A DNA stretch of 64,000 nucleotides from Owenia fusiformis (lineage: Eukaryota > Annelida > Polychaeta > Sabellida > Oweniidae), in the NCBI GenBank assembly GCA_903813345.2, contig CAIIXF020000007.1:37470759-37534758 (forward strand). The letters run 5' to 3'. This document shows, piece after piece, positions 8,822-52,944 of this stretch. The position numbers and the translations under genes are program-made. The notes under the pieces are model-generated. The model did no database searches, was not told the DNA's origin, and saw only the letters and a program-made list of their open reading frames with translations. Within the stretch, counting starts at the first letter, position 1; each line of letters begins with the position of its first letter.

Positions 8822-11800
8822 TCAAATAGAATGGGTACCATCTTGTTCAATGCTAACAAATGTTTGTGCTATGCATGCATGACTGCCATTTGTGTTGACG
8901 CAGGTTTCATCCGCCCCGCAGTTATCTGGGTTGCGGGCGCATTCATCAATGTCTGAAATAACCAAACAACTTAGAGCAAAAAACAAAAACAGACCATAGT
9001 TTCACAAAAGCCTAGAAACCTTGTTGAAATGCAGTAAAAAGGATATATTGATTGTTGTGTACGTAAAATGTCAATACAGGGTGTTCCATATGTTTCAGGA
9101 ATGATGCTCTATTTTATTGGTTTTCTTTTCAATCTAGCTAATCTTTTGCCAAAATGTGTCCAAATATGTTGTGAATAAGTTGGAAAAGTTTCATATCATG
9201 AAACTTAGTAGACTGAATAATATGGTTGCTATAGTGACCTAGGGGTAGGGTAGGTGGAGCAGGTGTAACAACACGCAAAACATGACATTTTTGTAAAAAT
9301 TGTAGTTTTTGTATAAAGTGTTCAAAGTGTTAATTTGTCATAGTCACATCAAACTTGTTGGAAATTAAAAAAATAGAGATGGATTCCTGGAAATTAAAAA
9401 TATTATCGCACCCTTTATTGGCCATAATCATTATTTCAGCATCTATCCCCTTTGCATTAGTTAGCGCTCTCACTGTTCTCGGATGCCCACATTTTGGATT
9501 ATCAGTCTCAGTTTCCCTTCCAGATTTTAACCGATTGTACCACTCATACACTCTAGATGTTACCCTCATTGAGTCCCCATGTGCAAAGGTTTCCTTTGCT
9601 AATGACTTTTTCACTTTTCAAGATGGCCGCTCGTCCAAAATGACCTGTGTTTATTCTCCTTTGTGACTCATGACATGACAGGTGTTTAAATTGTGATGTG
9701 ATCAAAAGTGATGACATTATTTTACTTTCTTGGAATCTACCTTCATTTTTGCTTAATTACTGACAAGTTTGATCCAACTCTGACAACCTAATACTTAATC
9801 ACGCTTCGTACAAAAAAAACTATTTTTATAAATATTTCATATATTTTGCGCGTTGTTACACCTGTTCCACCTACCCTTCCCCTAGGTTACTATAGCAACC
9901 ATATAATTAAGACTACTGAACTTCACAATATGAAACTTTACCAACTTATTCTTAACATGTTTTAAAAGATTGTGTCAAAAATTCAGTTAGATTGAAAAGA
10001 AAACCAATGGAACACCCTGCACAACGCCCAATTACTTAATTTCTTATTTAATTAATATTTCTTATATGTCTAAACATTTGGTTCAAGGCAACAGTGTATC
10101 GGACACATACATTTAATGTGTCAGTTCCAGTTACACTTATGATACGAGTGAAATACAGAAAATATTTTGCCCGAGAAAGAGGAATTTCACGAGGCACTTC
10201 TAGCATGTCCTGATACTTAAAATACTTATTTATAGCCCGATTTCGTAGCAAAATACAAAGATAAGCACGCGTGTGCGTAAACAAATGACCATTGATTTTT
10301 TCAGTCTCAGTCAGATCCTAGATGGGCGTTGTATTTGGCATTTTATGTCTGTTATTGGGGACACGTGTGAAAAACATCAGTAAAGAGAGACCAATGAGGA
10401 TTGGCTCCCAGGATCGAGCCTCGATATTTTTCAACATTGGAAACGTAAAAATGTCGTTATTTTCTGAAATTATAAGCGACTGCAAATTCAAAAACAGTCC
10501 AAAAGATTCAGAACAATATCTTGATCATTTCTTGCGAGTTTCGGATTTTTTGTTCGGAAATAAGACCAAATTCACGATTCAAATGTTGAATTGAACAAAA
10601 TGACGGATGTTTGAATTCGAATTTTGTAATCAGGACATGCCATATATAGTAAAAATATATGTGTTGCACTCTGGGAGCCAATCTTACGTATATTTTATCA
10701 AACTTTGTCTACCAATTATCTACCGATCATCTACTGAACTAGAATATCACATTTTGTCTAAAATATTTCACTTTAAAATCTGATGTCCATATATGTACAG
10801 CAAACGTAGAGAAAGTAAAATTGTTATGATAATAGTAATCTCATGTGGACGTACCTACACATTCATGTTCATCTTCTGAGAGTTCGAAACCAACCCTGCA
10901 TGAACATACATAACTGCCTACTGTGTCATTACAGAAATGCTGACAGCGGCCATTTTGATACAAGCATTCATCAAAGTCTAAAATAAAGAACACGCATAAA
11001 TACTATTTATGAGGTAAATATCAAGTAAATAAATAAATTGGCAAATAAAATCTCAACTTTCGAGACTGTTAAGATGTCTTAGATTGAGTCAATATGTCAT
11101 TGGCTTCGAATGCACTTATAGTTATTTAAACATAATCTTCCTTTATTTGTAGAATAGCTTCTTTTGCCAATTTAAGTCATTACTAACTAGTGCTTGGTAA
11201 GTGTGAGGTCATAAATGAAGGAGTGATACGAATGTTGATAAAATGTTTTAATTAGTCATTTAAGAAAGGAGCGAAGATGATTACTTGTACAACTGGTTCC
11301 ATTTAATGGTATCACGTCATCCGAAAGTTGTGATTGACAGAAACACTCATCAACAAATCCGCGAGCTCTATACACTTTGCTGCAGAATTGTGTGTCAGCT
11401 AGAAATCAAAACAAACATTTTTCGTAGAAAAATAACATGCATGTTAGCATAACACAGGCTAATTAATGATTCAATATCCAATAATTAATTAAGTATACTC
11501 AGACTATTTTTCAAAATAATCCGAAAAATAAAATACGAATAATATCAAAAAATTCAAGAACGAAGGATCGGTTGTCAACATTAATTTATTTTCTTGTAAA
11601 TGCCTCTTTGGGAGTACTTACCGACACAATTGCCTTCATTTATTGTTTCAATTTGGTATCCTGGTATGCAGTCACAATAGTAAGAGAAGAATGTGTTTAC
11701 ACAAAGTTGTGAACATCCACCATTGTTAACAAGACACTCATCGACATCATCAGGACCAACTGGACCAGTTGAACCTGTTGGACCGGAAGGGCCACTATGT

Positions 11801-14800
11801 CCAGTTGCTCCTGTATGACCAGAAGGTCCAGTAGCACCAGTACCTCCAGTAGGACCAGCAGGTCCAGTTGCTCCTGTAGATCCAGTTGGAGCAGTTGGAC
11901 CAGTTGCTCCCGTTGATCCTTCAGGTCCTGTAGGGCCAGTTGATCCTGTAGGTCCGTAAGGTCCAGTGGGACCAGTGGCCCCAGTTCCTCCTGTAGGACC
12001 GGAAGGGCCATTTTGTCCAGTTGCGCCTGTAGGACCAGAAGGTCCAGTAGCACCAGTACGTCCAGTAAGACCGGTAGGACCAATAGGTCCAGTAGCACCG
12101 GTACTTCCAGGAGAACCAGTAGGTCCAGTTGCTCCAGTTTGTCCTTTATAACCAGATGGTCCAGTTGCTCCAGGTTGTCCTGTAAGACCAGTTTGTCCAG
12201 TCGCTCCAGTTGGTCCTGTAGGACCAGAAGGTCCAGTTGCTCCTGTAGGACCATTGGGAACAGTTGATCCGGTTGATCCTGTCGATCCAGTTGGACCTTT
12301 TGAACCCGTAGCTCCTGTTGATTCTTCAGGTCCATTCTGGTCATTTGATCCTGTAGGAGATAGCACGATATCATTTATATCACTCCGTATTTGTAGCTTT
12401 GTTTACATTAATACGGAATAAAACATACCTTTTTATGAAAAATGGTGATTGAGATTATGTTTCACAGCAAGTTCGCAGGGCAATTCTATATAGCACATAC
12501 TCAGGGGAATTGACTCTACTTTCTATACACACCAAATGCATCTCTGTCGATGGAAGAATAAAAAAAGCCTTATGTATTGTATTGGAAATCCTATGTTTCA
12601 ATACAATACATCCACAGTAACTTGTCACACATCTCACCATGTGTCGTTGTAACTGTTATGTATTTGAATTTCAGATTCTGTTGTCATTGATGATATAGTC
12701 AGACATGAAAAACGGTGTATTGTGGCGATTCAAAAGCTTAATTGATCAACATTTGGATTTCATATAATACACCATCAAAAGAGCTGAATATCTGCACAGG
12801 ATTAGCAACAATTAGGTTCCATGAATTGAGAACCAAGTGATCAAAAACTTGATGCGACGGTTATGTCCGCCATTTGCGAGAACTGTATCTGACTAGTCAC
12901 AGCATTTATCTATTCCACATACATTATGTGTTTGTCATTCAAACCACAAGGGGCCTTGCATTGTGGTCAAGTAAAGGGAAATTTTCATTAATTTTCAGAT
13001 CACATCACAGAGAATTTAGAGTATGTTGCCAATATTGTATCATTTTTTGATTACGCCCGTGGAAAATTCAAAATTGCCGGTATTGTGTTTTTTGTAATAA
13101 TTTCGCGTAATGACAGTTCTATTGAGACCATTTTCACTAAGATTAACAACACACAGGATATCTAAATCTAGAAAGGACTTCCGGGGGACCACAATTATTT
13201 TTACACCGGTCTGACTTTACAGCAGCATTAATAAACTCTCACCTAATATTTTGAGAGTGTCTATGATGTCAGCTTTCCATAAAGTGATGTTTTCTTTCAA
13301 GCTAGATAACTCTGTACCGAGGGTAGAAACTTCCTTTCTGAAGTTAGCAATGTCTTCTTTCGTTTCACCTTCAACAAAAATCTCAATTATTATAGTGTCT
13401 GAAAACTCAATATAAACGATTCGTTCGAAAAGTTTTTTTCTGAGAGCATTTCAAGATAAGCTATTTTATAGTACTAACCCGTTTATATGCACTTATGGAA
13501 TTTTAGAACCGTTCGCAATGTACTTCGGGAGATATTTGTGGTAGATGGTTCATATGGCATCAGTAAGTTGAATAATGTGAATGCCTTGATATGCTAAAAT
13601 TGTTTGGTCAGTCTTTGTTATCTCAACTGTTTGTCTGGTAATGTTATAACGAGTGTATATTCTATTAAAATACAAAGTACAAATTACAGTCTTCCTTTGC
13701 AGCGAAACATAACTTGTGGCATTCTGTCATTGCTTTCATCACTACTACAGCTACACTCAATACATCTGTTCTTCTCTAATTCAATCTTGTAATACTAAGT
13801 AATGTCTAGTGTATTACTGTTTTTCTTTTCTTTATCGTGTATTCTGTCAATATTTTCTGCTTTCACTTTATTATAGCCTCGTTCTGAGCCATGTGTTCCA
13901 CAATTTCTTAAATTCATATATTGAGAAGTTTGATAACGTCATCAAATTAGGTGATTTGTTCAAGGGTCATTTGGAGTCATTATTTGACATTACCAAATAA
14001 GACAATATGGAAAATACGTATACAAGACACACTATTGCCTTGCCATGAAAGCAACACGACATATCATTTAAGTTAAAGTTTCTTAAGAAAATTAAGCCTT
14101 GTTTAGTGATATTATCCTTTATGCGTGTATGTTACTTGTTTTCCTTTTTATAAAATGATATGGATCATAGAGTCATCACCTGAGTTGCCCAACAACCATA
14201 AATTGTTAAGTAATACGAAATCTAAACAAAGTATGAGAATACGGCTGGGTATATACCTAAAAACTATGATAAAGATTGGTTTACTATTTTTATATAGACA
14301 CTTGAGCAACAATTTCTGAACAAAATTAAAATATACCATATTCGAAGTAAATCTTTTTCAAATGCAGAATAATATACGCTAACCTAATTTTTTGAGGGTG
14401 TCCATGACGCCAGCTTTCCATATCATTATGTTTTCTGTCACATTAGATTGCTCTCTGATAATTGCTGAGAGGATGGAAACTTCCATGCTTATAGAAGTAA
14501 TGTCTTCCTTTGTTCCACCTTCAACAAAGATGTCATTTACTAAAGTATCCGGAGTATCAACCGTAAATATTTTGGAAATGGTTCAATATTATGGGCACAC
14601 GACTTAAAACGTGGGGATCGGTTACATTTGCTCGTTAGATCGTTCATATAGCTATTTGAAATACAGCATCACATATTCTATTTTTATTTCTTTATTTCTA
14701 ATTGATTCAATTACATTAAGAGGATTACATGAAAAGGATTCTATTGGACTTACCAATATCACAATTTGCACCCCAATATCCAGGGGCACATGTACAATGG

Positions 14801-18728: not shown

Positions 18729-22076
<3,348 letters not shown>

Positions 22077-24753: not shown

Positions 24754-32035
<7,282 letters not shown>

Positions 32036-34612: not shown

Positions 34613-37600
34613 ATGGACTACGTAACGCTCACCCTCGCCGTATGTATCTTTGTTGGCTGTCGAGTCGCTGAAGGAACAAGAAAGGGAAATACCACATCTT
34701 GTCCAAAGCGTAATAGCCCAAAGAACCGGACGCCTACAAAGTACACGCTTTATGATAGAACCTTCACAGGGATCGGAGATGGAAAGATTCAAGATTTCCA
34801 AAAGAAGCCGTGGCCGCAAACCTTTCAAGATTTTTGGAAAAACGACGTCGGTATCTCTCGCGAAGAAGAAATAAGACGAGGTATGAGCAAATATCTGAAC
34901 AATACATTTTAGCCGAACAAACTCCTAATAATGGTTTAATCAATATGACTTTGACATACTTTGATAAACAACGATGAAAATAATCTAAAACTATTAAAAG
35001 GCCCCTTATAATTTTAAACCATTTTTCTCTCTTTTGAATACTATATTCGAATTCGGTGAACAGTTTTCTATAACGACAGCTTTAATTTACACAGTTATGT
35101 CATTTTAATCATTTTCCATAATATTTTAAAAAACCTTGGGCCAATCTACATTGATACAATGCTAAAATGTATTTGGATAACGTATTTCACATATTTTTTG
35201 TTGGCACCACCTATATCAATAAACTGTAACGTACACCAATTGATAACATACGTCCTATTATATTTTATGTTGGAGAAATTAAGAAAATTGGTCGAAGAAT
35301 AAGAGAGAAATAAACTCACAAACGCAGAAAGCATTTAAAATGTAAATTCTGATTGAAACCAATGGTGCAGAAATATGTTAAACATGATAAACACTTGTTT
35401 TGAACTAATATAGGCCTTTAACTTGATCTATACGATGGAGTATAGAAAATGGCGGGAAATATTGAAATACAGATTTCTGTTTTTCAAAAGTAAACTTTTC
35501 TATCTTGTCAAGAGTCATGATAAATTATATTTAGATGGTTAAACAACATTTTCAAGCCCTGGCCGGGGCCTTTAAATAAAATCACGGTTAAATTTAAGTT
35601 TTGAAATTTGATTGTTACTTTGCAGGTAGAGCATTCGTAAGTTTTATGAAATACGTGTCGGGTTTAGACGTAAGTGAGCTGACTGATGACCAGATTGCTA
35701 ACGGTGATAAAGTTGATTTCGGGGACTTTGTGTTCGACGCATTTTTCATCGACTCTGAGGTCAGGCTTCTTACTGAAACGTCACAAACTCGTGCTAAATT
35801 CTTCAGGAACTCCCCAATCAAAATCGGAGGCTTTAATATTATTTTCAAGAAAGAAGTCCCTTCTACTGGTAAGAATTACCAAAATTGTAATACCATATGT
35901 ACACACATCCCAGCATGTAACATTTAATCATAAGTCACAGAATGTCTGTGGGTCATTAGAGAAAACAACATTGATTTCCCTATTTTTTCTCTCTCGTGAT
36001 AGTTTTTCGAATTATATTATAAGCAATAACTCCAGATTGACATTTGAAGTCTAATAATCAAAGGTGGAAATTTAAATACTGTATAAACATTTGTTGCCTT
36101 GAAAGGTATCTCATTTAACATTTATCAACTACTGAAATCAATTTGGGTTGATTAAACAAGAGTTGTGGGCGATGGGTGTTAGTAGATAGAAAACTGAGGG
36201 CATCAGGCCGCCACGGGCCGCCACGGGCCCGGGGCTTTCAAAATCTCTGAAGATGAGCAGGAGATATAGATGAGCAGGAGATAAATTAATTGGATGGGGA
36301 TTAGGAGATAACTTAATTGGATGGGGCTTTCATCTTAAATGGGTGAGAGATAAGATACGCATGACATCATTGTTATCTTAAATGGGTGAGAGATAAGATG
36401 CGCATGACATCATTGTTATCTAAATGGGTGAGGACTGAATTTTAAAACGGAAGCATAACAAATCAATAACACAACATTTTTGTTTGATATATACATTATA
36501 TCCAATCTTAAATTTATTTTACAATTTTCTTTACAATTGATGTAATATTAACATTTTTAAGGTAGAAATGATAGATTCTACTACAAAATCCATGTTATTA
36601 GACACACTGAAAGTGTTTACAATTTCATCTAAACTATACCCTAAAGTTCTCAATAATATATACATGATACAATATTGTCCACAATTTGAACTGTTCAAAC
36701 CTTGAACACGAATGGGATTTACAAACATTGCATCTCCATATTCTTTTAATCCATAAAATGTTTCTGTATGACCTAAGGGGTCAAAAAATTCAATTTGTGA
36801 ATCTCTATAATAACATACCCAATGTTGCCCCATTTCATAGTGAGGTCTAGTATTTGCTATAAAACATTTTTTATCCATGATAATAGATGGTAATTGATCA
36901 CTTGCAAATACTCCTAGAAATCTATGCTTAGTATCTGGATGATTTGATAAAATAAAACTTATATCTTGTGAATTCATATTAGTACTGAATAATATTGCGG
37001 GATGCGTCAACCTCAAATTTTCCCGGAAATGTTGCCATTAAAATAATGTTTAATGATTCAGGTGTTGCCTCAGAAAAATGAATGTCAAGTTTTACATTTC
37101 CCTTTTTAAACAATGGAAGAATTTCACCATTTGAATATGTGTCTTTATAGCCTATATCAAACTTAAAGATACAAAAACCAGATTTAAAATCATCTATGCT
37201 TATATTTAACCCATCATTGTGTTCAAGATCTGAAAACAATTGTGTAAACTCATGAACATATTTGTCTTGTGAATCATTTGAGCCAAACTTAGGTTGAAAT
37301 GCTCTAAATGGAGTAGGGACATTATCTACTGAAATTTCAACATATGAAGTGTTTGCATGAATGAAATTGTAAGGATTAAGTTTATAGTTTCCTTGATATG
37401 CTGCATTTTTCACAATGACACAATACAATCGTGTAGGTACACGTCCTTGAAATAAATCATCTTGATTAAAAGAATATATATTACTAGGTAATGAGAGTAC
37501 TTTCATTTCATTTCTATCATAAGTATATACAGCATTTCTCTCCTGTAATTCAGTATTATATGCTTGTAAAATACCATTTGAAACTGTAATCATTGGAACT

Positions 37601-40600
37601 TCTAAATGTACATCTAAAAGTTTGACTTTATATTGTTCATTTGAATCAGTCATAAGTCTAAAACTGTTTTTTGTATGATTTAGTTTTATCTTCACTTCAA
37701 CACCATTAATGAGGTATTTGTTGATGCTGAAGATATCTTCATGGAATTTACATTCCATATCAACTACTTTTCCACCTTGAGTTTTCACAAATCTTTGTGT
37801 TAGTCCCATGTTGTTAGAGCCTTGTCCCAGAGGTTTTGTTGCATCCATTCCATTAGGTGGATATATCCCATTGTCCATATAAAACAGACATGCCGTACCT
37901 TCAGATTCTAATTTTCCTTTACTAGATGTTAACAATGTTTTCAACATACTTTTATAAGGATAGTTTAAGACAGATGATGCCATGTTATTTTGTTGTAATG
38001 ATATCTCAACCTCACTCCATAAAGAATGAATCCAATTATTTATTGGTCCATATGAATCATAATCTGTCAAATCCACATATTTCGGTAATGAATTATCTGC
38101 TTTCAATACCTGCGCTTTGACAGATAGCTTTACATTTTGAAGATCTATAAACTGTGAAGTGTTGTTTGGTAAGATGAACTCTATTGGAGACTCACTGTCT
38201 ATTGGATTGATAGGTCTGTACTCAACATAGTTCCTTCTAACAACACTACTTTCTGTTGGAGGTGTGTTAAATAACTGTAATTTCCCATTCATTACATCAG
38301 CACTGTTCATGAGTTTATATGCCATTTTTAATTATTTGAGTTGAATTTACTTTTTTCTTTTCTGTGATGTCTTTGTTGACCTACGTTTGTATTCCTGTGG
38401 AGATTTCTTATTGACTGAAGACTTACTATTGCGTTTGCTTTTATATACACGTTTTTTCTTTCTAATTGTATCACGTGACTCGTTTGACTCGTGTGACTCG
38501 TTTGAGTGCTGTCTCTTAAGTGTAGCTTTTGCTCTCTCAACGACAGCTTGCATTGGAGATATTATTTGTTTCGGTTCATCTTTAATATCATCTTCACTTA
38601 TCCAACCTCTTCCTGTTTGAGATACTTTCAATCTATTCTGTCTACCAGCTCTAATAAGTTTCAACCAGTGTTCTGGTCTGTCTACATATGGTACTAATTT
38701 CATGATACTTGTTTCAAATGAAGTGTACACGTCAAAGGTTTGTCTTTAAATGACACAAGTGTGTTACCATTTCCTCTTATATAGACATGTATGCGATCAA
38801 ACTCCCAATTCCCGACATCCTTGTATAATACTTGATTAAAACTCAACCAAGAATAATCCTTTGGAATACGCCTTAAGATTGGTTGTACATTTCCATCAAC
38901 AACACTTTCTATGCATAAATCACAAAACACATCTAAATACAATAATGCATCATTTGAATCCAATGGTGGTAACTGTATGTCAACAAGTCCTATTTTCCAT
39001 TTTCCTTTAAGATAAAAGTATCTTGGTAACTTTACAGTAAACTCTGATGCTGTATTATTGGGATAAATATTGGTTGAATCAGTGCTACTTAAATAAAAAT
39101 AGATGTCTTTATCCATTGTTTAAACTGATGTACTAAAGTCTGTGTCACTATTTGATTTTTGTATTATCTCATATAACTTTGCAAACTTTGTTATATTATA
39201 GTTCTCATGCTTTTGTTTTTTCAGATAATAAAACATCAATATCATAAATGAAACACTTGTAGATCCAATTGCTAAATTACTAATTGATATTTCTTCAATT
39301 GCTAATATATTTGAAGGTGTTGAAGCACTTATTCGTGCTAATGATGTTGCATTTTCTTCTGCCAAGAGCACTTTAAAAATATGTACTAATATACAGTAGA
39401 ACCTCACACTTTGATACTTCATTGCTAAATAACAAAAATGAGATGTACTTCAACATTTATATAAATATCAACATAACATAAAATAATGTTTTTCTATTTA
39501 TTTTAAGTATAATATACAATATTAAAAGGTTTTGATATCCGTAGCTTTAACCCAAGAATCAAATTTCTTAGGCCAATATTTCCAATGTACCAAGTATTCT
39601 TTTTGACCTTGTTTTGTGCGTTGTTTTAAAACTTTTTCTATTTTATATAGATTGTCTTCATCAATATGCACACGTTGAAGCTCAGGTTGATAAAATGTTC
39701 CTTTAATCTCTTCACCTTCAAAATCTTTCAAGCGATATAGAGGTAGACCTTGTCTGATGAATCGAGCAGATATTTTGAAAATCTCTCCAGTCCAATGTTG
39801 ATCATATTCTCTGGTAAAAACATGCCTTGCTTGTGTAATTCTAACCTGAGCTCCAATAGGGAATTTGAAAATTTGCTTGGATTTGGTTTGACTTTTTATT
39901 ATTGATTTAGGATAATACATACGCCACCAAATATTAAGCTCATCATCTTTAGAGACATCTTGGGGTGCTTTTTTAATACTTCTATGATGTGTAGCATTAT
40001 AGCTTTTGACAAAGTCCTGTAAATTATCAATATATCTAAGATTTTGTTTATATGTGATGTATCTCATTATTTTCGTCTTCAATGTCTTAATAAAACGTTC
40101 AGAGTAATTTGCCTTGGAAGTATTACGCGTAACAAAATGACGCACTCCCCATCTGCGTAACAATGTCTGTACACGTTTTGCACGGAATTCTTGACCAGCA
40201 TCACTACGTATTACATCTGGTACTCTCCCTTCTTTAAAGATATCATCAAATGCATCTGCTACAGCTTGTCCAGTTTTATTCTTAAGTGGTCTGACAAATG
40301 CAAAACGGGACATGATATCAATGACAACTAAAATAAAACGTATCCCATCATTCTCCGATGACATATTAGAGACATCCATTAAATCAGCATCCCATTGTTG
40401 ATCAATGTAAGACACGTACACTTTGTTACGCCGAAACCGTCTTCTATATGGTCTTTGTAGACTATAAGCTTCCTGACTATCCAACCATTTTTTGACTTGG
40501 TAGTATGATACATCAAATCCAACTTTTTGTAAAGTTCTATGTAATTTTTTAGGTCCACTAAAACTTGCTGGTTTAGAAGTATCATAATAATTCTTTTCTA

Positions 40601-43600
40601 CATATTCTTTCCAAGACATCTTTCCTCATAGACGTATATTTTAATAATGTCCCAGGTATTGAAATTATACATATATATATATATCAACTGCTACTTTCAG
40701 AATTGCTTTCATCATAATCATTAGATTGTTCTTCATCAGTAAATTCTTCATTAGCATTGCTTTCATCATAATTATCAGACTTTTCTTCATCAGTAGATTC
40801 TTCATCTGAATTGTCTTCTTCATCTGTATCTATAAATAGCTCACTAAACTTATGTTCATTTTTCACAAGTATCTTTCTGATTGCAAGATCTCTAGAGACA
40901 CCTCTCATTAACATATCATTTACTTCATCTACAATATTTCTATGTAATACATTGTCTGCTAAACCAAATACTTGTTTTAAGACCTTCTTATAGTGCTTCA
41001 TGAATATTTCCTTATCCATTTGTACAAGTTTCTTCTCAGCCTTTTCTATAGCCTCCTTTTCATTGTTTCCCCTATCTATATACTCCTTTACTTTATGATC
41101 ATAATCCTTTTCATTATCATTTCTAGCCAGGTTCTTTAAATATACAAATGTTTCATTTAATCTGAGATCATCATCTTCTTCTTCTTTATTTGTTTGTGCA
41201 TTGGTTTCAATCTTCATTTTCTTGGTCGGATGACCTTGACACCAATTTTTAACATGATGTTGTAAATCATGAATACTCTCAAAGACTAAACCACAGTCAT
41301 CACATGAGACCATATCGTCACATCCACAATGAGAGGAATAAGGTGACGTTCCAGTTTTTATATCATACATACTTGTACCCTCTGCATTTATTTGAGGTGT
41401 TTCTGGTACCGCATGATTAGGTATATTTCCATTACTTTCAAGTTGTTGTGATTGTATTCCTCTGTTCAGACTTTGTTTTGATAATGGTTTTTGAAGCATT
41501 ATATTTGAAGTTGTGGAAGGATTATACAATCTCATACTTTCAGGAGTTTCTTGCTTGAGGTCTACTAACAAGTAGCTGAAAGGTTGATGTGTAGCCTTTT
41601 CATATGCATCCAATAACTTGTGAGACTTCCCAGGATACATTTGATGAGCCAAAACAGATATTTGTTGCCTATCTCTTGGGTTCTTATACAACACAATGTA
41701 GTGGGAATTTAAACTGAGAGTCCGACTTTCTCTACCACATGGGAACAAATTCTGCATCAAGCAAATGACACTTAGATTTCTATGATGTGATCCACGTGTA
41801 TACAAATCAGCAATCCTTGTATCTTTTGATATATCACTCATTAAATCATCAAAGATCACCAAGTTCCTCTGATTCACATCTAAAAAATCTGGGTTACTCA
41901 ATTCGTCTGGTATTCCCATCATAAACTCAATATTTGAGTTGATTGTCTTGATGTTGTCATAAAGAGGTTGCCATTGACTGTAACACCATATGATTTTTTG
42001 CGGTGTTGGAGATATTGTAGTATCAGCATGGTCAATCAGTTCCTTTATATATGTAGATTTTCCAGAACCTGTCGGTCCAACCACCATCATAGTAAATGGA
42101 TGGTAGAGCACTTTTGATTTTGTTGATGTCATAGCTGGAATTGTTGAATAAATTCCCATGTCACGTTGTCTATTAGGTGAGTTTATGATGCTTTTCTGCA
42201 ATGCATGGTCTATTCTTTTATGACGATACATACTGGTTGCATGACTAAATGTCTTTCCACACTCACAGGAATAAGAAGAAATTTTAGACATGTTGACTCG
42301 TCTAATGATAACAGTTAAATGATAGTATGTTTGAGGTATCCTTGTTAAATAATCAAACCATGATTTAAATTTAGATGAATGTTGATGTAATACATAAGTG
42401 AACATTTGTGAACATCAGTGAACATTTGTGAACAATACTAGTGAACATCAGTGAACATTTGTGAACATCAGTGAACCTTTGTGAACATTATTAGTGAACA
42501 TTTGTGAACATTTATGAACAATACTAGTGAACATTTGTGAACATTTGTGAACTATAATAGTGAACATCAGTGAGCATTTGTGAACATTTGTGAACATCAG
42601 TGAACATTTGTGAACAATACTAGTGAACATTTGTGAACATTACTAGTGAACATTTGTGAACATTACTAGTGAACATTTGTGAACATTTATGAACAATACT
42701 AGTGAACATTTGTGAACAATACTAGTGAACATTTGTGAACATCAGTGAACATTTGTGAACAATACTAGTGAACATTTGTGAACAATACTAGTGAACATTT
42801 GTGAACATCAGTGAACATTTGTGAACAATACTAGTGAACATTTGTGAACATCAGTGAACATTTGTGAACAATACTAGTGAACATTTGTGAATAAAACTAG
42901 TGAACATTTGTGAACATCAGTGAACATTTGTGAACAATACTAGTGAACATCAGTGAACATTTGTGAACATCAGTGAACCTTTGTGAACATTACTAGTGAA
43001 CATTTGTGAACATTTATGAACAATACTAGTGAACATTTGTGAACAATACTAGTGAACATTTGTGAACTATAATAGTGAACATTTGTGAACATCAGTGAGC
43101 ATTTGTGAACATTTGTGAACATCAGTGAACATTTGTGAACAATACTAGTGAACATTTGTGAACATTACTAGTGAACATTTGTGAACATTACTAGTGAACA
43201 TTTGTGAACATTTATGAACAATACTAGTGAACATTTGTGAACAATACTAGTGAACATTTGTGAACATCAGTGAACATTTGTGAACAATACTAGTGAACAT
43301 TTGTGAACATCAGTGAACATTTGTGAACAATACTAGTGAACATTTGTGAACATCAGTGAACATTTGTGAACAATACTAGTGAACATTTGTGAATAAAACT
43401 AGTGAACATTTGTGAACATCAGTGAACATTTGTGAACAATACTAGATAACATTTGTGAACATCAGTGGACATTCGTGAACAATACTAGTGAACATTTGTG
43501 AACAATACTAGTGAACATTTGTGAACAATACTAGTGAACATTTGTGAACATCAGTGAACATTTGTGAACAATACTTGTGAACATCAGTGAATATTTGTAC

Positions 43601-46600
43601 ATGATAATTAAAGTATTCGACCATGTCACAATGCTAAATTCTCTCAATTTCTACTAAATTATTTACCCTCAATTTCAATGAAATTATTTACATAAAATAC
43701 AATTCGCTCAATTTCTACGAAATTATTTACATAAAATACAATTCATATATAACAACTTATCAAAGAAATTGGAACATATATGATCCTACTGCATTTAGAT
43801 GTTGTGTTATTGAATATCATGTACAGAATATTTAGGACTTACCTTAAACAAGCATACAGATATGTCTAAATCACCAGTTGTTTACTACCATGTTCATAAA
43901 TGGTCCACACACTTTTTGGAGATTTTTATATGGTAAAAATGATGTCAAATTCTATTTTAGGGCATGATGTCATGTATTTTTTAAGAAACTTAGGTCATAA
44001 AATGATGATATCATATACTCTAGATCATTCTAGAAAAAAGGATTAACACATTAAACAAAAGATGTTCTAGAATATGAAGGATTAACATTGTGATGACACA
44101 GTTAAATGTCAACATTCAATTATTACATTAAAAGACCATTATTGTTGAAATCAAGTAGAGTAAGATCAAATGGTCAATTCAATATAGAACTTAAATAAAT
44201 AAACCTTTTCAACGGTCAATTCAATATAGGACTTAAATAAATAAACCTTTTCATCTGTACTCATATTTAATCCAAAATCCAGTTCTCTTTCCTTTTATGC
44301 CAACAGTATTTGTTTGACCAGCTCAATAGGATTATTGATTCTTTTCAATGTTGGGTTAATATTGAAAGTAGAATTGTAAACACTGTTAATGGATTATACC
44401 AAATTTAAAATAATATTAAAGGGATTTATTTTGTACTTTACTATTCAGTCCAAGAAATACATTTCTCACCCATTTAAGATAACAATGATGTCATGCGCAT
44501 CTTATCTCTCACCCATTTAAGATAACAATGATGTCATGCGTATCTTATCTCTCACCCATTTAAGATGAAAGCCCCATCCAATTAAGTTATCTCCTAATCC
44601 CCATCCAATTAATTTATCTCCTGCTCATCTATATCTCCTGCTCATCTTCAGAGATTTTGAAAGCCCCGGGCCCGTGGCGGCCCGTGGCGGCCTGATGCCC
44701 TCAGTTTTCTATCTACTGGTGTTATTTGGTCATTGAATTATGAACAACTTAAATAGAGGGTGACATTTTTATTGCACCCTTAGGTGCTATATTGTAATCG
44801 GTTTGCCGGGAGGGCGGGCGGTTTGGCGGGCGGACGTCCCGAATAATCTTGTCTACAGGTTTCCAGCCAAACCATTTGAGGGATTCATTTGAAATTCTCA
44901 GGGATGTTTCTACCTATGAAAGTTTAGAACTGAATAGTTTTTCGGCATTCTGGGTAAATGTTAAGGCGGCCATTTTGGATTTTCTGTCCTAAAATCAAGG
45001 AGGATTGGCTCCCAGAATGCAACACCGATATTCTGCAAAACAATCACCTAGCGATAGCTTTGTTGGAGAGTATCGGGTCATTCTCCATGCAGTCGTACAA
45101 ATTATACAGACACGAATAGCAAATGACGCATGCGTGGAGATTAAAGAATATCGAGTTGGAACCCTGGCTTCCAATCCTCCTTGTCCTAAAATCTTGTATG
45201 TTAAGGCTTGTCTACAGGTTTCCAGCTAAACCGTTTAAATGATTCATTTGAAATTTTCAGGGATGTTTCTACTTATGAAAATTTAGAACTGATCAGTTTT
45301 CGGCATTCTGGGTAAATGTTAAGGCGGTCATTTTGGATTTTACGTCCTAAAATCTTGTCTGTCAAGGCTTGTCTACAAGTTTCCAGCCAAACCGTTTGAG
45401 GGATTCATTTGAAATTTTCAGGGATGTTTTTACCTATGAATGTTTACAACTGATTAGTTTTTCGGCATTCTGGGTAAATGTTAAGGTGGCCATTTTGGAT
45501 TTTCCGTCCTAAAATCTTGTCGAGGCTTGTCTACAGGTTTCCAGCCAAACCGTTTGAGGGATTCATTTGAAATTTCAGGGATGTCTCTACCTATGAAAGT
45601 TTAGAATTGGTTAGTTTTTCGGCATTCTGGGTAAACGTTAAGGTGGCCATTTTGGATTTTACGTCCTAAAATCTTGTCTGTCAAGGCTTGTCTACAGGTT
45701 TCCAGCCAAACCGTTTGACGGATTTATTTGAAATTTTCAGGGATGTTTCTATCTATGAAAACTTAGAACTGATTAGTTTTTCGGCATTCTGGGTGAATGT
45801 TAGGGCGGCCATTTTGGATTTTATGTCCTAAAATCTTGTCTGTCAATGCTTGTCTACAGGTTTCCAGCCAAACCGTTTGAGGGATTCATTTGAAATTTTC
45901 AGGGATGTTTCTACCTATGAAAGCCTAGAACTGATACGTTTTTCGGCATTCTAGGTAAAGTTAAGGCGGCCATCTTGGATCCCGTCCTTAAAGGGTGACG
46001 CATATCGTTTAGCAAATCGAACGCTCGTTTCTGGTGTTGCTCACCGTTTAGTATAAAAGGCCCGATCCCGGAATAATACTCAAGGGTTCACAGGTTCGAG
46101 GTCGTTGTGTCAACACCTCTAACTGTTATATAGCATAAGTATATTATAGATTGTCACACATTTATAAAAGGGTGATTTTTATTTTGACAAATCAATTCCA
46201 CATTTATGGGTGAAGTTTCAAGATCTTCTATTTGTGTATAATAAGGAAAAATTGGCATCTAAATTTCCCCATAACGTAATAGCACACAGCTTGGCATATG
46301 AAATATCCTACAAATGAAACAAAGCAGTTCTAATACAAGGATTTATATTGGCTGTTGTGCATGTATTCTTTGAACGCAATCACTCTATGGATAACGTTTT
46401 CAAAATCATTATAAACGGATTACTTTATCTCAAAGACAATTTCAATAAACTGGATTTTACAGAACTCCCCTTATTTCTAAAAAATGGACTGATCCAGTTG
46501 ACTCGCCTGGAGCCGCCATATTGTTTTTATACGGGAAGCTTATCGGAACCCTTTAAAACATGTCTCTCGAGGCTTGTTTACAGGTTTCATGGATTCATTT

Positions 46601-47821: not shown

Positions 47822-48535
47822 TAAACCCTCTCACAAAAATGGTATATACCTGCCAATCCCTCTTGTGAAAATGGTATTCACTTGCCAATCCTTCTCACAG
47901 AAAATGGTATTCACCTGCAAATCCTTCTAGCAAAAATGGTATTCACCTGCCAATCCTTCTTACAAAGACGACATTCACCTGCCAATACTTTTCGCGAAAA
48001 TGGTAAATATGCGAAAATGGTATTCACCTGCCAATCCCTCTCGCGAAAATGGTATTCACCTGCCAATCCCTCTCGCGAAAATGGTATTCACCTGCCAATC
48101 CCTCTCGCGAAAATGGTATTCACCTGCCAATCCTTCTCGCGATAATAGTATTCACCTGCCAATCCCTCTCGCGAAAATGGTATTCACCTGCCAATCCCTC
48201 TCGCGAAAATGGTATTCACCTGCCAATCCCTCTCGCGAAAATGGTATTCACCTGCCAATCCCTCTCGCGAAAATGGTATTCACCTGCCAATCCTTCTCGC
48301 GAAAATGGTATTCACCTACCAATCCTTCACAAAAATGGTATTCACCTGCCAATCCCTCTCACAAAAATGATACTCACCTGCCAATCCTTCTTACAAAGAC
48401 GACATTCACCTGCCAATCCTTTTCGCGAAAATGGTATTCATTTGCCAATCCCTCTCGCGAAAATGGTATTCACCTGCCAATCCTTCTCGCGAAAATGGTA
48501 TTCACCTGCAAATCCCTCTCGCGAAATTGCAATAT
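47822..48535. repeat. 32-bp minisatellite between the two terminal exons
   Basis: About 20 units of the form gaaaatggtattcacctgcc plus aatccctctcgc, with variants acaaa, ttacaaagacgac in the edge units. Since 32 is not a multiple of three, all plus frames are open through the array, giving false open frames of 162 and 222 codons. Confidence 0.95.
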
Positions 48536-48835
48536 AAATCAGTTCTCCGTTTTATTAATTTGCCTTATTGAGTATCAATGTAATGAGGACGAAAGTTGTA
48601 ATACAACAACAACGATTGCAGACTTATGTTCTCTTAATACTGTTAAGGTTAATCTGTGTAGTGCCTAGTTTAATTGACGCTCATGAAGTGAAATAAAGAA
48701 TACAACATATAAATTGAAACTTGTGATTTATTTGTTTATTTTTTTCCACTTATCATTCGTTAAACTAATAATTGAATTAATCCCTGGATAATAAAACCAA
48801 TGCTTTTATTCGTCATATCCATGCATTTATTTGAA

Positions 48836-49844: not shown

Positions 49845-50000
49845 GGTTGTCCCAGAAGTAATGCACTATATGCCCTAACTTTATCAATAATCGATATTTT
49901 AGGATATAATAGATAAAACTTCAATTGTTATTTACACAAAATTTCAGCTGAATTAAATAATATTAAAGAAAGTTAGAGCATATAGTGCATTACACCTGGG
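49845..50000. mobile_element. MITE-like inverted repeat cut by the gap
   Basis: gtaatgcactatatgccctaac near 49,857 is mirrored by gttagagcatatagtgcattac at 49,972-49,993. The outer word ggttgtcccagaag suggests mariner-type ends. The right end runs into the gap. Confidence 0.55.
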
Positions 50001-50500
50001 NNNNNNNNNNNNNNNNNNNNNNNNNNNNNNNNNNNNNNNNNNNNNNNNNNNNNNNNNNNNNNNNNNNNNNNNNNNNNNNNNNNNNNNNNNNNNNNNNNNN
50101 NNNNNNNNNNNNNNNNNNNNNNNNNNNNNNNNNNNNNNNNNNNNNNNNNNNNNNNNNNNNNNNNNNNNNNNNNNNNNNNNNNNNNNNNNNNNNNNNNNNN
50201 NNNNNNNNNNNNNNNNNNNNNNNNNNNNNNNNNNNNNNNNNNNNNNNNNNNNNNNNNNNNNNNNNNNNNNNNNNNNNNNNNNNNNNNNNNNNNNNNNNNN
50301 NNNNNNNNNNNNNNNNNNNNNNNNNNNNNNNNNNNNNNNNNNNNNNNNNNNNNNNNNNNNNNNNNNNNNNNNNNNNNNNNNNNNNNNNNNNNNNNNNNNN
50401 NNNNNNNNNNNNNNNNNNNNNNNNNNNNNNNNNNNNNNNNNNNNNNNNNNNNNNNNNNNNNNNNNNNNNNNNNNNNNNNNNNNNNNNNNNNNNNNNNNNN
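50001..50500. other. assembly gap (500 N)
   Basis: Exactly 500 undetermined bases, so probably a placeholder of unknown true size. Open frames drawn across it are meaningless. Confidence 1.
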
Positions 50501-52944
50501 CATTAGGGTTGATATTAAGTATCTCAATTCCATATCCTGAACACTGTTAATTTTATTTTTATAAATTATGATTTGCACACAAGAATGTTTGATTTGCAGA
50601 TATGCCATGACTTGACCTTTACAAGGTCACAATGACCTCAATAACACTTAGGATGTACCTGAATATTACGCCATAATTAACTCCTTACTTGATACAATAG
50701 TATATGTCATAATGGATATGAATGCTCTGATTCTGGGGGTACTTTTTATATACTTATAATGACGGATCCTTTCCCATAATGCATCATCATCCATGGCTAA
50801 TGTCATGTGATCAAATAGGTACATCCTATTGGCAAGTTATTGACACTTGACCTATGAATATAACTATATGCATGCGCATTCAAAGTAGGTGGAGTCACAT
50901 AGTTCAGAGTTCAGATTTCTCAATTTAATCACATGTCAATCCCAATCTCGCGTGATCATAATATGCACCTTCCCGGACCGGTGTGTGAGAGGGAGAGTGG
51001 CTCACAAGGGCTTGTAGCTAGACTATAAACCGAGAAAAATTTCACTTGAAATGTGTACATAAATAATACACTGTTAAACCAACGGCAAGTTTGCTCTTGT
51101 ACATCTGGCATTAGATCGGGCACTGACAATGCTTATCAAATTAGACAACCGTCCCGTTTAATTTGCTACTATTTATTTTCTACTCTACCACTATGTATTT
51201 GTCATGGTATCGATTTAAAAAACACTCATGATAATCAGATAATGTTCATGGTATTATGATGTCAACGACCCATGATAATTAGATAATGTTAATGATATTA
51301 TGATGTCAACGACCCATGATAATCAGATAATGATAATAATATTATGATGTCAACGATCTTTATGAACCATATAGATGGCAGTGTATGTACATATAGCCGA
51401 GACGTTATTAAAATTATTGGATGTTCAGCTCCATCTTTAAATACACACTGCCTCCGTGTTCATTTATTGTTGTATTACCAAAACATATACTTACTTATAA
51501 AGGTTTTTGCGATCCACATTTGACATATTGGACACTCTGGGTATATCGGTTTATTTTCTCAAATGTAAACAGATTTTAAATTAATTAAAATGTGATAAGA
51601 TGAACATGACACATGGTGAACAAGAGATCCATCATGCATAAAATTAATCAAATTCGAAATCTTCATCCCCAAAAGATCACTGTATTTTAGATTAAAATGT
51701 CAAGCGGTTTGTCACGATTGTATTATATATTATCGTATGAATTGTAAAATGAAGCCCTCTGATTGGTCAGTTCTTTATTGCTTCTGTTTCTGTATTGCTA
51801 CTGAGATTGTCCCCGTTGATCATCTCCGTAGCAATACAGAAAATGTTGGTACAGAGGGGACAATCTCAGTAGCAATACAGAGAATACAGAATATGTCTTA
51901 GGAATATTTCTTATCTCCTAAGTAAAATGTATTGGCTTAAGACCACACGATATTCGTTATTCTGTATTGGCACCCGACTTCGTCTCGTTTCAATACAGAA
52001 TTTCTCGAGCAGAATATATCCTATATTGCACTTCAAATCATTCAATAACGTATAGAATTGTTTTTTTGTATTGAATTGTATTGTATTGTATTGTATTGTA
52101 TTGTAATGTATTGTATTGTAATGACAATAAAATTTAGGCGAAACCACCTCTAGAGTTGCTTGGCAAGGGACATATATATTTATATCCCGACCAAGTTTTA
52201 AGTAGGGAGATGAAGATACCTATAGTGTACTCCAAGTATTGTGGGAATATTTTACTTTTTGAAATATTGGCCATGGGTAAAATAATCACCAAATTGATCA
52301 ATTTCAGGGGATCGAGTTTGATTTAGGAGGAAGAAAATTGAGTAGCATATTCTTCTTTTCTTCATCCTAGGTTTGAATCATGGCTTCTAATCCTCTTTAG
52401 ATAATTGCAGATTTGACGCCCTATGGGCACAAGTTGTCTTATGAATATGCATAACAATCTCGTTTTCGTATATAATTCAATTCAACATTTCTCACACATG
52501 TTAAAGAGCAAAAGTAAGGTAAGAGTTACTTTTTTGAATTGTTGCAATTTTGTACATGTACATAAAATTCCTTGTTCAGGCCTTGTTCTGGTTTCAAAAA
52601 TATTCCGTCATCACTGACATACTTTTTCCCAGTTTGTTCGGTACATTTGGAACACCTTATATATACATATAGTGTGGTAAAATATTTCGAGCACTCTGCA
52701 GAAAGTCATTTGAACAAGGCCAGGTGTCCATAGTCAGCTCGATATGTACATTGAACCTGTAATTTTACAGCCATGTCTGTTTTTTGGTCGATTAGCAATT
52801 AAATCACATTTTCTACTCATACTCTTCGGTAATATATTAAATAGGTATTATATAAATAATTTGAAAAATTAATGTCCATATGATCATTTATACATTTTAC
52901 TTCTGTACATTATATTGGAGGTTTCAGCTATGAAAATGAAAACT
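50501..52944. other. gene-free stretch with small repeats
   Basis: Three near-copies of a 50-bp unit (ccatgataatcagataatg, then tattatgatgtcaacga) at 51,225-51,356. An inverted pair around cagtagcaatacagagaata and tctgtattgctactgag at 51,784-51,890. A (ttgta)n run at 52,070-52,125. No exon is supported. Confidence 0.6.

Follow-up and report, generated by a model that had tools for sequence, protein, structure and literature searches.

A capsid-bearing Polinton-family element without a DNA polymerase, and its likely helpers, in the genome of Owenia fusiformis

Introduction

The name of the Polintons refers to the polymerase that they make themselves. A 64-kb stretch of the Owenia fusiformis genome (hereafter the window) contains an element of 8,537 bp (36181-44717) that has the integrase, packaging ATPase, protease and capsid genes of this group and no polymerase gene. 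How, then, is such an element copied? The analysis described here supports a polymerase-less lineage, born by deletion, with conserved capsid genes and with likely helpers in the same genome. The window element belongs to a Polinton/adintovirus family, and a B-family polymerase encoded by relatives within that genome probably copies it in trans.

Results

Copies in the host genome

The host genome (498 Mb in 525 contigs) was searched with the terminal inverted repeat (TIR), the capsid protein, the ATPase and the polymerase, and 40 of 67, 94 of 96, 76 of 323 and 36 of 1,284 candidates, respectively, were scored. The TIR search gave at least 49 matches. Twenty elements, including the window copy, could be bounded, and each of the 20 is flanked by its own perfect 6-bp duplication; two single TIR matches (C9:2788141 and C7:13433224) were left out of this set. 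The duplications and the 49 matches together place the family far beyond chance. The family ends (AGTAGATA) are of the Polinton type (AGT...), and the duplications vary in sequence. Three classes were found among the bounded elements: eight with capsid genes, five with only an ATPase and a PW-like gene, and seven palindromes.

Seven of the eight capsid-bearing elements (the window element, L011, L013, L015, L018, L020 and L028) are 7,964-8,537 bp long, and the eighth, the C3 copy, is 14,521 bp. The initial annotation had suggested searching the genome for polymerase-less copies of like length, and these seven are such copies. They have one arrangement, each at its own site, and share their left part at 96.9-99.8% identity. 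Their difference in length is mainly that of the GTGAACA iteron array in front of the ATPase gene (571-1,186 bp); without the array they measure 7,309-7,521 bp.

No polymerase was found in the window element, either by Pfam or by searching it with polymerase readings of this genome (tblastn), in agreement with the initial annotation. Against the seven 8-kb copies, the L035, L039 and L040 polymerase readings gave no tblastn match at E <= 0.1, and the C3 polymerase matched only a 28-residue zinc-finger stretch inside the ATPase. The capsid search gave 94 matches, of which nine copies are at least 95% identical to the window protein. A polymerase is absent from seven of these nine copies and present in two, C3 and C369. 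The supposition that no family member has a polymerase is ruled out by these two copies. The reduced lineage proposed at the outset therefore stands for the seven copies, which keep their integration and capsid genes, but not for the family as a whole. The opposite case had also been named, in which all other copies carry a polymerase between the array and the right repeat; this is the arrangement of C3, and in C369 the polymerase lies on the same side of the ATPase, which makes two of nine copies and not all.

Polymerase-bearing relatives

The C3 copy (31497900-31512420) is flanked by the duplication GCTTTG. Between its small open reading frames (ORFs) and the array lies an open frame of 1,287 codons, which carries C2H2 fingers and an Endonuclease_7-like stretch (just under the cut-off). 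Five B-family polymerase motifs were located in it. Residues 400-1270 match 6,130 of 7,988 database proteins scored and are 49% identical over 99% to P0249, named PolB of Parasteatoda house spider adintovirus; other relatives are named "DNA-directed DNA polymerase". PF03175 did not match this protein at E <= 1, and the protein is absent from the 11 matches of a genome search with PF03175. Its identity as a polymerase rests on its relatives, some of which have PF03175, on the match to the L039 reading (1.8e-13) and on the motifs. The L039 reading, which PF03175 does not match either, is linked weakly by tblastn (6.7e-5) to the PF03175-bearing L035 protein. The type of protein-primed B-family polymerase found in L035 and L039 was dropped as a candidate helper, since the C3 polymerase differs from it (22-30% identity in tblastn pieces).

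In the C369 copy, the ends of which lie outside the region read, as do the bases in between, a polymerase 95% identical to that of C3 over residues 101-1219 stands upstream of the ATPase; of 10,000 bases read at this place, 2,770 are N. Among the 36 of 1,284 candidates scored, four polymerase places are at least 94% identical to the C3 type. At C91:95499-100707 and C11:3247720-3252968 a polymerase 94% identical to that of C3 was seen beside a partial, 82% identical ATPase match. These two places are possible polymerase-only elements, with no capsid match nearby.

Origin of the 8-kb class and conservation of its genes

The window element was compared with the C3 copy. The repeats are 94% identical, and the array and the start of the ATPase gene are 87% and 92% identical in the two longest matches. 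Between the array and the right repeat, part of the spacer of the window element shows 66% identity to the sequence that immediately precedes the C3 polymerase. The window element lacks this polymerase as well as four small ORFs that C3 has to the left of it. The idea that the 14.5-kb copy is an 8-kb element with an unrelated insertion was ruled out once a polymerase and small ORFs were found upstream of its ATPase. The simplest reading is that the 8-kb class would go back to one founding loss of the polymerase, followed by spread. We favor one origin over seven deletions because the left part is common to all seven copies.

The identity between the classes is uneven. The major capsid protein (MCP) of C3 is 99.9% identical to that of the window element, and its ATPase 96.7%; toward the 8-kb class, too, the C3 capsid gene shows 99.9% identity. 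The C3 ATPase is 96.1-96.7% identical to that of six of the seven 8-kb copies. The ATPase of L020, in contrast, is 98.3% identical to that of C3, against 97.0-97.7% to its own class. This mosaic identity points to continuing exchange of sequence between the 8-kb class and the polymerase-bearing copy.

The ratio of nonsynonymous to synonymous changes (pN/pS), counted against the window copy and pooled over the other copies in comparisons that are not independent, was 0.28 for the capsid gene, 0.28 for the likely penton gene, 0.18 for the PW-like gene and 0.40 for the integrase gene. These values argue that the capsid genes have been kept by purifying selection, which need not mean that each copy is active.

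Organization of the window element

The features of the element are collected in Table 1. The complete element and its perfect ggtgtt duplication were found as first described. The TIRs had been described as exact repeats of 252/253 bp. Their near-identity stands and their length needs a slight correction: they are about 262 bp long, with 241 bp identical from both tips and 98.5% identity over 263 aligned columns. The inner part of the repeat is a 43-bp tandem repeat. Seven ORFs of interest, all on the minus strand, follow each other in transcription in the order ATPase, integrase, 100-amino-acid (aa) ORF, 138-aa ORF, 126-aa basic ORF, 448-aa ORF and protease.

Table 1. Features of the window element (positions in the window)
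Feature	Position	Strand	Remark
Target-site duplication, left copy (ggtgtt)	36175..36180		perfect 6 bp
Left terminal inverted repeat	36181..36442	+	outer 241 bp identical to right repeat
Adenain-like cysteine protease (PRO)	36531..37016	-	Peptidase_C5 (PF00770) 5.6e-5, above cut-off; overlaps end of capsid ORF
Major capsid protein, 448 aa, predicted double jelly roll	36979..38325	-	structure model, Foldseek/VIA matches
Basic protein, 126 aa, at Maverick PW (B126) position	38347..38730	-	between minor and major capsid genes
Likely penton (minor capsid), 138 aa	38700..39116	-	by position and conservation
100-aa ORF, hydrophobic stretch (by eye)	39120..39422	-	no Pfam family above cut-off
rve integrase, C-terminal chromodomain	39522..40619	-	PF00665 8.4e-12, PF00385 2.4e-8
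A32-type packaging ATPase, 573 aa, C2H2 fingers, C-terminal helical region	40684..42405	-	Pox_A32 (PF04665) 1.1e-7, zf-C2H2 1.1e-5
GTGAACA iteron array, 95 words, one orientation	42397..43591		directly upstream of ATPase
Spacer	43592..44454		no ATG-started ORF >48 aa; corresponds to polymerase place in C3 relative
Right terminal inverted repeat	44455..44717	-	partner of left repeat
Target-site duplication, right copy (ggtgtt)	44718..44723		perfect 6 bp

Pfam recovered the integrase (rve/Chromo), packaging ATPase (Pox_A32) and protease (Peptidase_C5) that had been read from the sequence. The catalytic motifs of the integrase and the protease were located by eye. The structure model of the ATPase has a mean predicted local distance difference test (pLDDT) of 69.5, and its best Foldseek matches are to the packaging NTPase B204 of STIV (E 2.2e-6). 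No superfamily 1 helicase (S1H type) was found above the Pfam cut-off in the seven ORFs, of which the ATPase is the largest. The ATPase frame opens within the array (42397-43591), so that the array can be translated into a repetitive peptide (MFTSIVHKCSL...); the real start of the ATPase may be a later ATG.

A Pfam scan of the 448-, 138- and 126-aa proteins matched no family. The 448-aa protein, already proposed as a capsid candidate, is predicted by structure modeling to be a capsid protein with a double-jelly-roll fold; the structure libraries used cannot exclude other folds. By sequence it matched no PDB entry, and a protein search gave 15 relatives, none informatively named. The 138-aa protein is likely the penton. 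Its homologues adjoin other capsid genes read in the Owenia genome, and as a single sequence it gave a weak match to PBCV-1 P1 (E 0.026), which a profile did not reproduce. The PW gene of Mavericks also sits between the minor and major capsid genes (PMC8097293, available part). A PHROGs search gave few matches, none named capsid or polymerase, phage records yielded no relatives, and viral contigs gave pattern matches of which none was confirmed.

Smaller derivatives with the same ends

Twelve smaller elements carry the family ends, namely the five with only an ATPase and a PW-like gene and the seven large palindromes. All 12 have a perfect duplication, and no integrase or capsid match was found in any of them. 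Mobilization in trans therefore happens in this family.

The five ATPase-only elements (L014, L016, L022, L025 and L026) are 4,049-4,473 bp long and encode, beside the PW-like gene, a diverged zinc-finger ATPase (about 39% identical; 516 aa in the three elements with ORFs listed). They hold 0 or 1 copy of GTGAACA, and L014 and L022 have a different tandem array before the ATPase gene.

The palindromes (L009, L010, L012, L017, L019, L021 and L027) are 3,822-7,155 bp long. Their arms, of about 1.6-2.9 kb, are 97.5-100% identical and enclose loops of 109-1,389 bp; in five of the seven, the PW-like gene occurs once per arm. A purine-rich central tract (GGGAATGAGGAGGA) is common to all seven and was not found in the capsid-bearing and ATPase-only elements searched, a set that leaves out the L024 half of C3. 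Since all seven share the tract, the palindromes likely descend from one palindrome that moved to new sites. Insertion in trans is likely as well, given that neither an integrase nor a capsid match lies in them. In the five palindromes compared, the arms differ by 0-1.1 substitutions/kb within an element, against 2.7-69.2/kb between elements. The arms have thus been evened out repeatedly, which fits linear, end-primed, strand-displacing copying in which the product folds back.

Other capsid lineages and ATPase places

Seven other capsid-bearing places were read. Their capsid proteins are 32-52% identical to that of the window element and their ATPases are short (220-238 aa). A polymerase reading was obtained at five of them: L034/L035 has a 1,428-aa frame with PF03175 (1.8e-40), and L030, L031, L038/L039 and L040/L041 are linked by tblastn, directly or through L039. 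A 391-bp inverted repeat was seen at the L036/L037 place.

A second group combines an extended ATPase (74-77% identical) with a capsid protein (32-33% identical), 2.4-3.1 kb apart, at 12 places. One copy was bounded at C5:18575512-18585695 (L042 4013 to L043 1396; 10,184 bp), with the ends AGTAGTGTATG and the duplication GTCCTA; its ATPase is 75% and its capsid protein 33% identical to those of the window element. No polymerase was found in the approximately 5.0 kb read of this copy. ATPase and capsid matches cover about 2.8 kb of the remaining 5.2 kb, and the 2.4 kb between them that was not seen is too small for such a polymerase plus the expected integrase and protease.

The extended ATPase gave 323 first-look candidates in the Owenia genome. 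Counts around the 76 scored places were based on all 94 capsid rows, on 76 of 92 ATPase rows (16 second pieces were dropped) and on 32 of 84 polymerase rows, in most cases one for each place. A capsid match lies within 12 kb at 22 places and a C3-type polymerase at 24; 19 places have the capsid only, 21 the polymerase only, three both, and 33 neither. One of the three places near both has a 44-residue capsid fragment. In these counts, absence of a polymerase is safe just for the seven 8-kb copies, whose own sequences were read and searched, and absence of a capsid gene means that none was recognizable with the window capsid protein.

The counts would be compatible with a split integrated DNA virus, in which a polymerase set and a capsid set, both built around the zinc-finger packaging ATPase, complete each other, the palindromic and ATPase-only elements being packaged satellites. 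We regard this as an unlikely, though not negligible, organization. The counts are a lead and not a demonstration, because scoring in the polymerase search covered just 36 of 1,284 candidates.

Database relatives of the zinc-finger A32 ATPase number 421 (including P0016-P0135); several are bivalve sequences, and proteins of Pinctada, Mytilus, Pecten and Mizuhopecten are among them. The Pinctada gene model P0062 joins an integrase with a zinc-finger A32 ATPase.

In the host flanks, a tandem repeat of about 162 bp in five copies (45183-45980) lies just to the right of the element. The window also contains a collagen-like GPTGATGP ORF, two similar cysteine-rich ORFs (CWDKST...) and a peptide-repeat ORF (11581-12366, 20971-21402, 30912-31295 and 48000-48668), and a run of N at about 50000-50600, possibly an assembly gap.

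Discussion

How the element would be copied can be outlined as follows. An ancestor would have lost the polymerase and the small left-hand ORFs, whereas its ends, its array and the sequence that had preceded the polymerase were retained. A longer relative would supply the polymerase, which would recognize the common ends, perhaps together with the iterons, and copy the linear DNA in a strand-displacing manner. The product would then be inserted, with a 6-bp duplication, by the integrase that the element itself encodes, and the element's ATPase and capsid proteins could package this product, or also the helper and the smaller derivatives. End recognition, strand-displacing replication and packaging in trans are steps that we infer.

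Several observations weigh against copying in trans by a relative. Replication, packaging and excision are here predictions from sequence. The C3 copy is ruled out as the direct parent by the 66% identity of the spacer and by the mosaic identity; its repeat is just 94% identical to that of the window element, and its ATPase frame has a stop in the C-terminal part. Gene conversion can also cause the evening out of palindrome arms. The pooled pN/pS is higher for the ATPase (0.58), the 100-aa ORF (0.75) and the protease (0.91, from nine changes), and the majority of the capsid changes come from C369 alone (pN/pS 0.25). A profile search with the 138-aa protein gave no capsid match and one unrelated match (E 0.33). 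At two of the other capsid places, L032/L033 and L036/L037, tblastn found no polymerase match within the 20 kb read. Absence of a detectable polymerase is thus not peculiar to the 8-kb family and may be more widespread in the Owenia genome; it may in part reflect sensitivity, or diverged polymerases. Finally, a cut-and-paste route requires no polymerase.

In that last case the integrase would move the element, host replication and repair would raise the copy number, and the capsid genes would be passengers. The element does encode its own integrase and has clean ends. To our knowledge, Ginger transposons have neither a polymerase nor capsid genes. They are small like the window element, carry a related, Gypsy-type integrase and have been described as cut and paste (PMC2836005, available part). 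The duplications and ends of the window family are, however, of the Polinton type (6 bp, AGT...) and not of the 4-bp CCGG type with TGTNR ends known from Ginger (same source). Moreover, protein sequence is conserved in the capsid, likely penton and PW-like genes, and B-family polymerases of the mobile-element type are abundant in the Owenia genome. We consider cut and paste improbable.

It is quite improbable, too, that the seven copies are the dead remains of one polymerase-deleted element that spread recently under an active helper and now decays neutrally. Damage does occur, in that the ATPase gene of L018 contains a stop and the frame of L015 is broken near the end of the integrase, and the close helpers are few, with the four polymerase places noted above. 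None of the nine capsid frames contains a stop, however, and the changes in the capsid and penton genes are biased to synonymous ones. The divergence of the left part, up to about 3%, and the recombination with a polymerase-bearing copy suggest persistence.

Least probable of all is self-sufficient copying, in which the zinc-finger ATPase and the array would recruit host polymerases without a helper: the array lies directly upstream of the ATPase gene and has been retained by all seven 8-kb copies and by all seven palindromes, additional fingers and a helical C-terminal region set the ATPase apart from the 220-238-aa forms of the other capsid-bearing places read, and 33 of the 76 ATPase places have no capsid or polymerase match nearby, but GTGAACA is nearly missing from the five ATPase-only elements (with another array in L014 and L022), this type of ATPase stands beside a polymerase at 24 of the 76 places, and its best structural matches are packaging NTPases.

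Copying by a relative's polymerase, which we prefer, can be set beside known systems; statements on these refer to the available parts of the papers cited. The window element resembles Polintons/Mavericks in its rve/chromo integrase, A32-type ATPase, adenain-like protease, predicted double-jelly-roll capsid protein, TIRs and 6-bp duplication (PMC4028283, PMC8097293). Its gene order, integrase-penton-PW-capsid-protease if the 138-aa protein is the penton, is that of vertebrate Mavericks plus one small ORF after the integrase. It differs from them in having no protein-primed B-family polymerase, in the length and zinc fingers of its ATPase and in its long iteron array. The 8-kb class also does not match the Polinton/Maverick size of about 15-20 kb, and its 8.0-8.5 kb compares with 12.7-24.6 kb for intact vertebrate Mavericks (PMC4028283, PMC8097293). 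In some Polintons the capsid, protease and ATPase genes have been lost in concert (PMC4028283).

Adintoviruses are defined by PolB, hexon and an integrase with chromodomain (PMC11071296). Their PolB has an OTU-like domain at its N terminus, and their hexons can be recognized by BLASTp with hexons of other adintoviruses. The PolB of the C3 relative and the C-terminal chromodomain of the window integrase are adintovirus-like, whereas the window element has no PolB, their defining gene. Genomes with adenovirus-class virion genes and no recognizable PolB and integrase are mentioned in the same source. Many endogenous viruses of protists have no detectable polymerase, and another mode of replication is considered possible for them (PMC10120064). 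They are like the window element in being integrated and capsid-bearing with no polymerase gene found. Their enzyme may be undetected (PMC10120064), whereas that of the window element is shown to be lost by the polymerase in the corresponding place of C3. Polinton-like viruses are mostly without a protein-primed polymerase and integrase and use other replication proteins (PMC11071308); unlike Tlr1 and polinton-like viruses, the window element has no large polymerase-helicase (S1H) protein among its ORFs. Like virophages and other helper-dependent viruses (PMC11071308), it has its own capsid and would need the replication of another element. Its putative helper would be a closely related element of its own genome and not a giant virus. 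For comparison with non-autonomous elements PMC6431247 was used.

In the literature covered (titles and abstract openings, mostly outside subscription papers), we found no description of a Polinton lineage with capsid and integrase genes in which the polymerase was lost while relatives in the same genome kept theirs. Relatives without a polymerase are in themselves already known; a lineage with likely helpers and derivative classes is new.

The zinc-finger ATPase is the mark of a larger group, for which a systematic survey would be worthwhile, and the palindromic derivatives may have recorded in the genome how elements of this family replicate. The family makes the sharing of replication and packaging in trans, and with it the origin of helper-dependent viruses, testable within one genome.

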